Source of the DNA: Fodinibius salipaludis
GTDB taxonomy: Bacteria > Bacteroidota > Rhodothermia > Balneolales > Balneolaceae
Assembly: GCF_002287075.1 (NCBI RefSeq)
Contig: NZ_NSKE01000009.1
Location: forward strand, 1 to 64,000
Length of the DNA: 64,000 bases
Reading direction: 5' to 3'
Shown: positions 1,837 to 7,618 of the stretch, in pieces
How the letters are laid out: each line of letters opens with the position of its first letter
Position numbering within the stretch: the first letter of the stretch is position 1
Notes under the pieces: generated by a model
The model's database searches: none
Told to the model about the DNA's origin: nothing
The model's input: the letters and a program-made list of their open reading frames with translations, nothing else
Translations under genes and position numbers: made by a program

Positions 1837-2323
1837 ATAGTTCCTTCCAGTGGGTATTGGTCCTCAGAGAAAGCAAAAAATGCTTCTCCATTCTGGCTCA
1901 AATGACGTCATCCCGTATCAATACTTCACAACTTGAAGTCCCTCCCTGCTTGCGGGGAGGGATTTAGGGTGGGGCAAAACATTGCTCGCGCGTACAATTC
2001 ACTCACAACCTTGTAGGGCTGTAAACGAAACCATCCTCAGCCACGAATTAAAAACAAAGATTTCTCCACTCCCTATCGGTCGGTCGAAATGACATCTACA
2101 TGTATTAGATTCACCATTAAAATCTAATATTAAATGCTTCAACCGTCATTGGTCATCCATCTTCCGTCAATCTGTAACTTTGTTACTCGATCACTCAAAA
2201 ACTTCCTCACCTAATCACCCTTCACCATTTCCCCGTCGTCCGTCCCCGGTCTAACTCTGTAACTTTGCTTCTTTGTCACTTTGCAACTTAGTCACCCAGT
2301 AACCTCATCACCAAAAACCGCTC
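1837..2323. repeat. Intergenic mosaic of dispersed repeats 3' of cysN
   Basis: No ORF is supported here. At 1940-1980 there is a G/C-rich phrase (CCCTCCCTGCTTGCGGGGAG, then ATTTAGGGTGGGG). At 2065-2095 there is TCGGTCGGTCGAAATGACA. At 2165-2315 there are GTAAC/GTCAC phrases with CCGTCGTCCGTCCCCGG. The last block ends about 11 nt from the cysN stop, so it would be the 3' untranslated region of cysN. Confidence 0.7.
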
Positions 2324-3604: not shown

Positions 3605-3681
3605 TGTGATTACTCAGTATCTTAAAATTAAATTCGTTAAATATTCTCAGCCTCAACAGCAGATATTGTTGAATGTTATAT

Positions 3682-3700
3682 GTTGAAGGTTGCAGGTTAA
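3682..3700. repeat. Left arm of inverted repeat flanking four-helix-bundle gene 1
   Basis: Reads GTTGAAGGTTGCAGGTTAA on the plus strand and covers the stop codon of the 3697-4107 gene. Its reverse complement matches 4113-4131 at 18 of 19 positions. Weaker similarity continues outward for about 14 more bases. Confidence 0.75.
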
Positions 3701-4107
3701 GTTCCATAATCAACTAAAATATCCTTAACCCTGTCATTAGAACTGTACCCTTCCAAATAAGAAATTAACTTCTTTGTCTTTTTGGAAATAGTTGTACATC
3801 GATCAAAAAGTGTATGGAACTCCGAATCAGTAATATAATTACAATCTAAAGCTACATAAGATAGAGATCTTGTTTCACCACAAGATCCTTTAGAATGTCC
3901 CAAGTAATTAATGAATCGCTTAGTTATTCTACTTTCAAATCCTTCACTAATATTACTCATAACTGAAACAGAAGAGCGACGAATCTGATCCTTTAACCCA
4001 TAGTCTTTAGAGAACTCTTTTTTTCGAGTCAATTTATAAACATCTCTAACAAGCTGTCTTGCCAGCTGCCAAATATCTAAGTCTTCAAATTTCTCAATCG
4101 ATGCCAT
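3697..4107 (-). CDS. Four-helix-bundle protein (23S rRNA IVP/S23 family), copy 1
   Basis: The protein has 136 residues of four amphipathic helices. Family signatures are FEDLDIWQLARQLV at the N-terminus, LKDQIRRSSVSVMSNISEG (about residues 40-58) and GETRSL in the third helix. Relatives are encoded by intervening sequences inserted in 23S rRNA genes and by the avd genes of diversity-generating retroelements; basic surfaces suggest nucleic-acid binding. Here it splits cysD from cysN and is closely bounded by an 18/19 inverted repeat, so it looks like an inserted cassette. Function in this position is unknown. Confidence 0.85.
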   Translation of the reverse strand: MASIEKFEDLDIWQLARQLVRDVYKLTRKKEFSKDYGLKDQIRRSSVSVMSNISEGFESRITKRFINYLGHSKGSCGETRSLSYVALDCNYITDSEFHTLFDRCTTISKKTKKLISYLEGYSSNDRVKDILVDYGT

Positions 4108-4112
4108 AACGT

Positions 4113-4131
4113 TTAACCTGCAACATTCAAC
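4113..4131. repeat. Right arm of inverted repeat flanking four-helix-bundle gene 1
   Basis: Reads TTAACCTGCAACATTCAAC, 6 nt upstream of the gene's start codon (minus strand). It pairs with 3682-3700 with one mismatch. The same phrase family (TTTAACCTTCAACATTCAAC-like) recurs in other gaps of the first 14 kb. Confidence 0.75.
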
Positions 4132-4151
4132 CTTTAACCTGTAACTGCCCT

Positions 4152-5057: not shown

Positions 5058-5753
5058 TTCCTGATATTATTTTAGAGTAAAACTAAAGCGCATGAAATTA
5101 AGGATTTTAACATACAATGACTATTGGGATTATGACTCTCGCGGAAGGAGTCTTCTATCGGACGACTATATTTGCCATCCGATAGATGTAATAGTTTGAA
5201 TATTCGATTTGTTTGGAGGGGTTGCAAAGTTTGAAGGGAGTTGTACCCCCGAGAAACGCTCCCTGATATTGTTCGAGGGTGCAACCCTCTCACAACTTCA
5301 ACGACAAGAATTCCAAACGCCTAACAGATACTCCTTTTGATTCTACGCGAATCTATTCGAGGAGATTCCTGTAAGAAAGGTTTTTTCCTCTCAACTTCAC
5401 GGTTTTAACCTTTAACCTTAAACACTGAAAACCTTATCTCTCTGTCCCTTTGTTTCTTTGTCACTGAATGACACAGTCACCCAATCACAGCTTTAAATTC
5501 CGTTACAGACATCCAACATCCGTCAAACCACACACCCCGACCCCGAAGATTCGCCCCCCCCTCTCAAGAGGGGAATTTCCCAGTGCCGGGTTCACGGTTT
5601 TAACCCAACATTTAACATTCAACCTTCAACATTGAACTATACTCTGTCCACAGTCAACCGTCGTCCGTCCTCCATCCCCAGTCCAACTATGCAACTTTGT
5701 TTCTTTATCACCGCATCACCTAATTACCCCTTCACCATTCAACACCGCCCCAA
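5058..5753. repeat. 696-bp repeat-rich intergenic region between cysD and cysC
   Basis: No gene is supported. It holds the leader of cysD (5058-5130). At 5217-5303 there is a phrase GGGAGTTGTACCCCCGAG, then CGCTCCCTGATATTGTTCG and GGGTGCAACCCTCTCACAAC, which recurs at 14109-14176. CACGGTTTTAACC occurs twice (5398, 5588). At 5605-5750 there are TTTAACATTCAACC phrases, CAACCGTCGTCCGTCC and GCATCACCTAATTACCCC. The last block ends 6 nt from the cysC stop. Confidence 0.7.
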
Positions 5754-6293
5754 TCATCCGTCAGCTTCTCCGCGCAAATACTCAAAAACCCTTTGCACCC
5801 CTTCCTCAGGAGTAATATTGGTAGTATCAATGCTGAGTTCCGGATCTTCCGGTTCTTCATAGGGATCACTGATGCCGGTAAAGTTATCAATTTCTCCTTT
5901 TCTGGCTTTTTCGTACAATCCTTTTACATCGCGCTCCTCACAAACTTCGAGCGGCGTCGATATATGGATTTCGGTAAAATCCTGACACATATCGCGGACA
6001 AAGTCGCGGGCATCCTGGTAAGGCGAAATAAACGAAGCAACCACAAAAACACCGTGCTTTTGCAGCAGGCTCGCTACAAAGCCGACTCTCTTAACGTGAT
6101 CATCGCGCTCTTTTTTAGAAAATCCGGTCGTAGGAAACACTTCACGTACTGCATCTCCATCTAAATGCTCAACCTCATATCCCTGTTCCTTTAGCTGCGC
6201 ATATACCCTTTCTGATATCGTACTCTTCCCCGAGCCGGATAAACCCGTAAACCAAAGGACGGTGGGCTTAAGGGCACTTTTTTTATTTTTCAT
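5754..6293 (-). CDS. cysC: Adenylyl-sulfate kinase
   Basis: CysC phosphorylates APS at the 3' hydroxyl to give PAPS. The 179-residue protein has the Walker A FTGLSGSGKST (residues 16-25), LDGDAVREVF, FVASFISPYQDARDFVRD and the FTGISDPYEEPEDPEL substrate loop near the C-terminus. It is a stand-alone kinase, unlike CysNC fusions. It lies between cysQ (with a four-helix-bundle gene between) and cysD on the same strand, so the cluster provides the full route sulfate to APS to PAPS, with CysQ removing PAP. Confidence 0.96.
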   Translation of the reverse strand: MKNKKSALKPTVLWFTGLSGSGKSTISERVYAQLKEQGYEVEHLDGDAVREVFPTTGFSKKERDDHVKRVGFVASLLQKHGVFVVASFISPYQDARDFVRDMCQDFTEIHISTPLEVCEERDVKGLYEKARKGEIDNFTGISDPYEEPEDPELSIDTTNITPEEGVQRVFEYLRGEADG

Positions 6294-6327: not shown

Positions 6328-6354
6328 GACGGGCGACAAATGACTGATGACCGC
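6328..6354. repeat. Left arm of inverted repeat flanking four-helix-bundle gene 2
   Basis: This 27-nt stretch, starting GACGGGCGAC and ending GATGACCGC, directly abuts the stop of the 6355-6714 gene. Its sequence matches the reverse complement of 6740-6766 at 21 of 27 positions, including nine identical bases at the inner end. Confidence 0.65.
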
Positions 6355-6714
6355 CTATGTCAATGCTTTTAAAAATGCATTTAATTTTGCAAATAATGTG
6401 GATCCCAACTGTTTAAAATCTTTAACCAACTTACTGTTTGGATCTATATAATCTCGCCTTTGAATTAATCGAATACATGCAATAACCTCTACATGAGACC
6501 GAATTGCAAAAGATAAAAATCTTGACTGCTGAGCATTACTTTGCCCTGTAGAACCTTCAGCAATATTCAAAGCGATTGAAGTAGAGGCTCTTCTGAGTTG
6601 TGAATTCAAATTATACTTTTCACTTTCCGGTAATTTCTCAGCTATATCATATGAAAGTGCGTTAAACTCCATTGCAAGTTTCCATACTTCAAGTTTCTCA
6701 AACTTATATGTCAT
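6355..6714 (-). CDS. Four-helix-bundle protein (23S rRNA IVP/S23 family), copy 2
   Basis: This 119-residue four-helix protein has the family signatures FEKLEVWKLAMEFN, LNSQLRRASTSIALNIAEG (about residues 37-55) and a helix with SFAIRSHVEVIACI. It differs clearly in sequence from copy 1 (3697-4107), so it is not a recent duplicate. It lies between cysQ and cysC, again with inverted repeats hugging both ends (6328-6354 and 6740-6766), here drawn from the CCGTC-type phrase family. Mobility or an RNA-linked role is plausible; no enzymatic motif is seen. Confidence 0.85.
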   Translation of the reverse strand: MTYKFEKLEVWKLAMEFNALSYDIAEKLPESEKYNLNSQLRRASTSIALNIAEGSTGQSNAQQSRFLSFAIRSHVEVIACIRLIQRRDYIDPNSKLVKDFKQLGSTLFAKLNAFLKALT

Positions 6715-6739
6715 GATAATAAGATCTTAATTAAATGAA

Positions 6740-6766
6740 GCGGTCATCCGTCGTCTATCAACCGTC
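6740..6766. repeat. Right arm of inverted repeat flanking four-helix-bundle gene 2
   Basis: This 27-nt stretch, starting GCGGTCATCC and ending CAACCGTC, lies 26-52 nt upstream of the gene's start. It pairs with 6328-6354 at 21 of 27 positions. Confidence 0.65.
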
Positions 6767-6847
6767 TTTAATGTAAGACCATCAATCAACACCTTACAAT
6801 ATTTTTGAAAACGGTCTCCCGTCCCCGGTCCTCTATCATTCAAAAAT

Positions 6848-7618
6848 TTACAATTTAACATTCTCTTTCAGCCCAATTAAAAAGGAGCCATTTTTCAAAT
6901 CCGGCTTATTATAGGTTAACGGCGATTCATGAACGCCTTCCCGCGCCGAATAGCGATACACCGCATCCCCCGCTGCCACATCCCATTCCATGGTAGGCCC
7001 CATTCGCGGATAGATATCAGCCCTGCCTTCGGCCACTAAACAAAACTTTATGGAACTTCCGGCCGGAATCGTCTCCTCTACCGTAAGTCCTTTCTCTTTT
7101 AGCTGAGTGACAAGTTTACCCGATCCGTGGGACCGGCTCTGTACGGCCACAAGTGCTTCATTTTTATCACTGCCCGTAGAATAGATACGTTCCGGGGCCT
7201 CCGTTCCCACCTGCTTAAATGATCCTTTCCCTTCTTCTGCATAGTACATCGTCTGCTTATCCGGGACATACACCACTCCCATTATGGGCTGACCATCCTC
7301 AATCAAAGCGATATTAACCGTAAATTCCCCATTCTTTTTAATAAATTCTTTGGTCCCATCCAGCGGATCGACGATCCAGAACTTGGTCCATTTTTTACGC
7401 TCTTGGTAATCAGGTATACCCGATTCTTCTGATATGACGGGCGTTTCAGGATCCAGTTCCTTTAGGGCATCAATAATGATGTGATGCGAAGCCAAATCAG
7501 CTTTCGTAAGCGGAGAATCATCTTCCTTTCGGGTGATCTCCACATCCTGCGCATCATGATAAATTTCCAGCATCGCTTCGCCGGCTTCTTTTGCAACACC
7601 AATAATTTCTTTAAGCAT
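6848..7618 (-). CDS. cysQ: 3'(2'),5'-bisphosphate nucleotidase
   Basis: CysQ hydrolyses PAP, the by-product of PAPS use, to AMP. The 256-residue inositol-monophosphatase-fold protein shows the metal ligands SEES (about residues 63-66) and WIVDPLDGTKEF (81-92). A later EWDVAAGDAV motif completes the lithium-sensitive phosphatase signature. SPLTKADLASHHII near residue 35 is typical of CysQ. It is first in the minus-strand run cysQ, four-helix-bundle gene, cysC. Its presence implies PAPS turnover, by reductase or sulfotransferase encoded elsewhere. Confidence 0.94.
   Translation of the reverse strand: MLKEIIGVAKEAGEAMLEIYHDAQDVEITRKEDDSPLTKADLASHHIIIDALKELDPETPVISEESGIPDYQERKKWTKFWIVDPLDGTKEFIKKNGEFTVNIALIEDGQPIMGVVYVPDKQTMYYAEEGKGSFKQVGTEAPERIYSTGSDKNEALVAVQSRSHGSGKLVTQLKEKGLTVEETIPAGSSIKFCLVAEGRADIYPRMGPTMEWDVAAGDAVYRYSAREGVHESPLTYNKPDLKNGSFLIGLKENVKL

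Follow-up and report, generated by a model that had tools for sequence, protein, structure and literature searches.

The window analysed here, a stretch of 64,000 nucleotides that forms the start of contig 39 in the 3.58-Mb genome of Fodinibius salipaludis, contains a small gene in the gap between cysQ and cysC (Table 1). Its product of 119 amino acids is an S23, or four-helix-bundle, protein (PF05635, E 2e-27; TIGR02436, E 2e-25), and structures of S23 homologs have been solved (2gsc, Xanthomonas XCC0516, and 2rld). In the Pfam search the open reading frame (ORF) matched PF05635 alone, and no transposase, recombinase or reverse transcriptase was found in the unit. The gene is framed by two inverted arms, of which the 5' arm (the right arm, 6740-6766; GACGGTTGATAGACGACGGATGACCGC is its reverse complement) ends 25 nucleotides ahead of the start codon. 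Compared by hand without gaps, the two arms match at 21 of 27 positions, and free local alignment gives them a score of 16.6. An S23 cassette with its own inverted arms between cysQ and cysC, the left arm touching the stop codon and the right arm lying upstream of the start, had been proposed in an initial annotation of this DNA, and the ORF, the profile matches and the arms all confirm it.

A second S23 gene, designated copy 1, lies in the same window between cysD and cysN. The initial annotation had assigned its arms to a different family from those of the target, which is correct, with the refinement that the supposed phrase families are degenerate heptad repeats. The same annotation called the two copies unrelated; this was too strong, since both belong to PF05635 and their proteins share 41% identity across a 51-residue stretch. 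At the contig edge, the ORF calls read as IS3-like transposase genes (1-960 of the window), followed by a nucleotidyltransferase-like ORF at 1378-1836.

Table 1. Coordinates of the target element, its neighbours and copy 1 in the window.
Feature	Position	Strand	Basis and remarks
S23 gene of target element	6355..6714	-	ORF call, PF05635 and TIGR02436; same-site orthologs in G002, G008 and L112, 75-83% amino acid identity, dN/dS about 0.09-0.14
3' arm of target element	6328..6354	-	Abuts the stop codon; GACGGGCGACAAATGACTGATGACCGC on the forward strand, GCGGTCATCAGTCATTTGTCGCCCGTC in gene direction; closes the predicted RNA fold
5' arm of target element	6740..6766	-	Degenerate 7-nt repeat, GACGGTTGATAGACGACGGATGACCGC in gene direction; 21/27 against the 3' arm
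Shortened promoter-like module GTAAG-N14-TCTTAC	6773..6797	-	N18 form in the G008 and L112 orthologs
Outer repeat remnant GAATGATAGAGGACCGGGGACGGGAGACCG	6812..6846	-	Directly after cysQ; relatives have the left arm of a type B S23 element there
cysQ, upstream neighbour	6848..7618	-	Co-directional
cysC, downstream neighbour	5754..6293	-	Co-directional
Copy 1, S23 gene, 136 aa, between cysD and cysN	3697..4107	-	PF05635/TIGR02436 match
3' arm of copy 1	3668..3700	-	Overruns the stop codon; GTTGAAG-type heptads; arm score 21
5' arm of copy 1	4113..4145	-	Sequence, arm scoring

Across 15 related genomes, the gap between cysQ and cysC is occupied by S23 elements of three types (A, B and C) or by broken copies, or is empty. 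Type A, which has GACGG/GACAG arms, is found in the genome under study (G000), G002 and G008; type B, with GAATGTTGAATT arms, occurs in G006 and G010 and is broken in G009; and type C, with a near-perfect pair of arms of about 29 nucleotides, occurs in G003. Decay is seen in G007, where the arms and a promoter-like module are kept and the ORF is lost, and in G011, where a 3' remnant is left. An S23 element has been gained and lost at this site within the genus. The 5' arm in G008 matches the 3' arm in the genome under study at 25 of 27 positions, and the same-side arms match at 21 and 22 of 27. Because the arms resemble each other more closely across sides than on the same side, the ancestral type A arms were a near-perfect inverted pair that has since decayed. 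The target arms changed independently on each side after the split from G008.

A search of the rest of the genome for further members and their arms, as the initial annotation had envisaged, brought the number of PF05635 genes to 12, and inverted arms lie on 11 of them. The arm sequences vary widely, with units such as AGCTATC, GAGTATT, GATGTAAGACGG, GTGATTAG, GTTGAGTTGTTGAG, GTGAAAAGCGAGAAG, GTTGAAG, GTTATTTGTTAATG, TTAAAAATTAAAAATGAG and GACGG. Since the repeat units differ from copy to copy, what the arms have in common is a form, not a sequence. An arm score, defined as the best inverted match between the 150 nucleotides upstream and the 150 nucleotides downstream of a gene, was computed for 661 genes in about 0.85 Mb of this genome. 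Genes were called as simple longest ORFs, with the nearest ATG as start codon; each score is the maximum over many alignments, and the nulls were scored likewise. Nine of the ten highest scores belonged to S23 genes. The controls had a median of 8.6 and a 99th percentile of 17.0, and the value of the target was exceeded by only one non-S23 gene (17.4) among the 661. The S23 genes of this genome scored from 12.6 to 26.8, save L012, at 8.0; repeats in the same orientation, not inverted, adjoin the S23 gene in L012 and in a copy between cas6 and cas4 (L196). The chance occurrence of such arms around random genes, named in the initial annotation as grounds for abandoning its reading, is thus rejected by the scoring of the 661 genes and by nulls of mismatched 5'/3' pairs, which scored low.

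The arms consist of degenerate repeats in tandem, whose period is usually seven and sometimes eight. In S23 flanks, autocorrelation peaks at lag 7 (0.33-0.385), compared with a flat 0.29 in control flanks. A window in which at least 19 of 28 positions match at some lag, which is 7 in nearly all cases, is found in 39-45% of the flanks of named loci and 3-6% of controls. Among the 74 named loci, which were chosen by similarity to the target protein and come from Bacteroidota, Chloroflexota, Nitrospirota, Omnitrophota and others, 54% have an arm score of at least 14, as do 6.5% of mismatched 5'/3' pairs. A phylum-wide sample agrees with these similarity-picked loci: arms scoring at least 14 occur in 65% of 26 loci, compared with 2.3% of mismatched pairs. 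PF05635 was present in 90 of 118 genomes sampled across the phylum, with up to 16 copies, and the S23 copy number across the genus ranges from 1 to 15 per genome.

Heptad-armed S23 genes are found in at least five phyla (Bacteroidota, Chloroflexota, Nitrospirota, Omnitrophota and Cyanobacteriota). On cyanobacterial and Riemerella plasmids, for example, the units of the arms are GTCAGAA, GGGAAAA, GGGAACA, AAAAGCT and GGTTTAA. Two plasmid copies lie within CRISPR operons: one between cmr2 and cmr3 (L200, Picosynechococcus, 1486-1842), and the other between cas6 and cas4 (L196, Pseudanabaena, 1492-1851), where the 3' end of cas6 runs into the heptad array. Phage records gave no S23 match at 1e-3.

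Movement of the whole unit can be followed on cyanobacterial plasmids. A three-gene operon, X-Y-Z, is carried by 10 Nostocales plasmids; on five of the ten, the gap between X and Y is 3 nucleotides, and on three of the ten, an S23 element lies between X and Y, beginning directly behind the stop codon. One strain harbours a reciprocal pair: pNsp_a has S23 between X and Y, and pNsp_c has an empty X-Y junction and a different S23 between Y and Z, two genes that overlap or nearly touch on the other plasmids. Moreover, alignments between three elements (L193, L198 and L203) extend over 416-419 bp at 78-82% identity, with one arm at each end and unrelated sequence beyond, and a Scytonema plasmid also matches this unit. 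As the homology takes in both arms and stops there, the arms move as part of the element. The initial annotation had argued for a repeated insertion process, and this is upheld by the copies in this genome, their spread through the genus and the three element types in the cysQ-cysC gap; its suggestion that empty and occupied sites be compared is answered by the clean alleles on these plasmids and by the arm-to-arm homology.

Further derivatives occur on the same kind of plasmid. In pC052_A, a 170-bp internal-deletion derivative keeps both arms and only the ends of the gene. Inverted GTCAGAA arm pairs also surround short S23-less filler upstream of X on Nostoc plasmids (L198, 755-905; L206, 305-530). 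This filler differs between L198 and L206 and is absent in L208, and these pairs look like MITE-like relatives. On a plasmid of Nostoc N6 (L199, 1480-2044), the S23 gene is broken by a further insert with GTCAGAA heptads of its own. TTCTA, a candidate target-site duplication, stands at both ends of the element at one Nostoc site, and a second site is unclear. The elements are like MITEs and small insertion sequences in that they are short units with inverted ends, their deletion derivatives keep these ends, and in the cyanobacterial relatives the arm-bounded unit moves as a whole. Nonetheless, they differ from both in having neither a conserved terminal sequence nor a transposase in the unit.

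These data bear on the view that S23 is an ordinary operon gene and that its arms are unrelated slippage microsatellites, their match being due to chance or to palindrome correction. Bacteria in general have an excess of heptad repeats, for which slippage has been proposed (PMC4692102), and orphan heptad arrays without S23 occur in the window and in Nostoc, in line with this view. However, the arms single out S23 among 661 genes while mismatched pairs score low, homology at unrelated sites is bounded by the arms, and empty and occupied alleles exist. This view is largely refuted by these results, and we consider it very unlikely.

The orphan arrays in the window (2160-2312 and 5640-5760) consist of heptads and octads, with several types of unit following one another head to tail. 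Such arrays often lie behind stop codons, and are dense in the S23-bearing contigs C2 and C39 and sparse in C1. In the genus, the density of heptads in random 100-kb stretches was not correlated with the number of S23 genes (rho 0.08), a comparison with little power made in stretches away from S23 genes; C2 and C39 are several times denser in heptads than those stretches.

Heptameric repeats as such are known from bacteria, for example the STRR of Calothrix and Nostoc and the GGGAATC/GGGGATT arrays of Xanthomonas and Nostoc, and 70-75 close inverted heptad pairs were counted per Xanthomonas genome in a report that called the bacterial heptamer excess unexplained (PMC4692102). Those arrays resemble the present arms in being degenerate 7-nucleotide arrays in gaps, and in Xanthomonas in forming inverted pairs. 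Unlike the present analysis, that report connects the arrays with neither S23 genes nor a mobile unit. Plasmids probed for GGGAATC arrays with a low-complexity filter in place gave no match.

The S23 protein is under purifying selection. Between orthologs and between homologous elements, dN is 0.09-0.16 and dS is 0.9-1.7, and dN/dS is about 0.08-0.14. The promoter-like module, in its common form GTAAG-N18-TCTTAC, was found with at most one mismatch within the 260 nucleotides upstream of 4 of the 12 S23 genes of this genome, 9 of 19 in relatives, and 11 of 661 genes overall. Exact copies stand at 24 places in the genome (L292-L315), compared with 1-2 for a reversed control. When their translations were read by eye, genes behind the module resembled ssb, comEA, radC, comM, recN and recA, and others resembled an integron-kind tyrosine integrase, RAYT transposases, GIY-YIG, GxxExxY and S23. 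Judging by the genes that follow it, the module is likely to be a promoter that drives, in this genus, a regulon for recombination and competence or one of the SOS kind, and some S23 copies in the genus may be co-expressed with genes for recombination and competence.

That the module is common to S23 and RAYT genes raises the question of whether S23 elements are passengers in a REP-like system, with RAYT (Y1) transposases supplied in trans and the hairpin arms as their substrate. The copy numbers of S23 and Y1 genes are correlated (rho 0.64, p 1e-5, in 39 genomes; 0.84 in a set of 13 genomes), in raw figures that ignore phylogeny and genome size. S23 elements are also built somewhat like the REP/RAYT unit (REPtron), with a gene between inverted repeats and orphan repeats elsewhere, and in this genus RAYT and S23 genes go together in copy number and have the promoter-like module in common. 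In contrast to RAYT units, S23 has no transposase domain, no Y1 gene lies inside its repeat pair, and its arms are built of heptads that change in sequence from one element to the next, where a REP hairpin is fixed. The RAYT genes of these genomes are flanked by REP-type palindromes and not by heptads, and several genomes with 5-8 S23 genes (G002, G006, G008 and G017) have no Y1 match. A REP-like system therefore seems unlikely to us.

Avd of diversity-generating retroelements is a related small four-helix-bundle protein that shares its fold with S23. In a retro-element of this kind, a trans-acting reverse transcriptase would copy the hairpin RNA, and S23 would play the part of Avd. The target does match the Avd model, but weakly (14.6 bits against a cut-off of 80); no reverse transcriptase is found among the operon genes, and no template or variable repeat adjoins the target. 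No RVT_1 match was found in many S23-rich genomes, among them G014, G017, G020 and G035, each of which has between 7 and 12 S23 genes, and the numbers of S23 and reverse transcriptase genes correlate weakly (rho 0.39). A reverse transcriptase acting in trans is thus a weak candidate, and we hold this reading to be highly improbable.

The arms might instead be maintained at the level of RNA, as in an intervening sequence (IVS), for a stem whose cleavage by RNase III frees the operon mRNA of the S23 insert and spares the host genes, a reading that is compatible with the element being mobile. The minimum-energy RNA fold predicted for the target element (456 nucleotides) has -108 kcal/mol and is closed by the two arms. 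Predicted arm-arm RNA duplexes reach -42.7 kcal/mol in this genome and -45.5 kcal/mol at the named loci, compared with -27.6 and -34.7 kcal/mol, respectively, for mismatched pairs. Both neighbours are co-directional with S23 at 51 of the 69 named loci where both were called, compared with 375 of 661 control genes, a bias that could also stem from insertion inside operons. Moreover, the IVS of Coxiella is cut by RNase III (PMC4990558). However, mismatches between arms show no excess of G-U over A-C (112 versus 102 overall; 33:21, 70:69 and 9:12), so selection on the RNA stem is not supported, and the independent change on each side of the target arms since the split from G008 points the same way. 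We regard maintenance at the RNA level as possible, at odds well below even.

The 23S IVS is the closest parallel in other respects as well. In Coxiella burnetii it has GACAGAT heptads before an S23 ORF that is itself decaying, and a 28-bp stem subject to RNase III cleavage (PMC4990558). The present elements are like 23S IVSs in having about 420-430 nucleotides, a single S23 gene, terminal inverted repeats that form a stem of about 28 bp, and a sporadic distribution; the GACAGAT heptads of Coxiella are close to the GACGG/GACAG heptads of the target. In contrast to 23S IVSs, they lie in gaps of protein operons, in many divergent copies with widely different repeat units, and their S23 genes are under purifying selection whereas the Coxiella ORF decays. 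The 23S rRNA gene of this genome spans all 2925 model positions in 2915 nucleotides and has no IVS. With an S23/PF05635 protein, inverted repeats that form a closing stem, and heptads before the ORF, the target element resembles IVS-type elements in its build and probably works as they do. Since it lies outside rRNA and its excision is hypothetical, it does not strictly count as a 23S IVS.

The reading we prefer, to which we give a probability of roughly 0.7, is that the cassette is a mobile element of the S23 intervening-sequence type outside rRNA, which has inverted heptad-repeat arms and inserts into gaps between genes. Such a unit would consist, in about 420 bp or slightly more, of a 5' heptad arm, often a promoter-like module, the S23 gene and an inverted 3' arm. 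It would insert into intergenic gaps, mostly between co-directional neighbours and often directly behind a stop codon, so that neither neighbour gene is broken. The arms may be the ends that are recognized in movement; given how widely the repeat unit varies between elements, recognition would depend on the shape of the hairpin and not on its sequence. S23 may be a nucleic-acid-binding protein that shields or presents the hairpin, and cutting and joining would fall to enzymes of the host or to others acting in trans. Once transcribed, the arms can pair with each other and enclose the gene in a stem, and RNase III would be expected to cut this stem as it cuts that of the Coxiella 23S IVS.

A broader proposal is put forward tentatively, at somewhat less than even confidence. 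S23 elements may constitute a pan-bacterial class of transposase-free mobile elements whose ends are defined by form; 23S IVSs would be the members inserted in rRNA, orphan arms would explain much of the heptamer excess, and in Balneolaceae the elements would be switched on with recombination and competence genes.

To our knowledge, the origin and function of the 23S IVS and of the S23 protein have been open since about 1990, and we know of no accepted cause for the excess of 7-nucleotide repeats in bacterial genomes. In the open-access literature, which was the scope of our search, no report connecting S23 genes with heptad arms outside rRNA was found. Orphan arms of S23 elements are a candidate cause of the bacterial heptamer excess. 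A single mobile unit, common in protein operons, would tie this excess to the origin of S23 and the IVS, and both questions become testable; the material for doing so includes numerous copies of the unit, sites that lack it, deletion derivatives and a candidate promoter. It would also give annotators a meaning for the many genes now labelled 'four helix bundle protein'.
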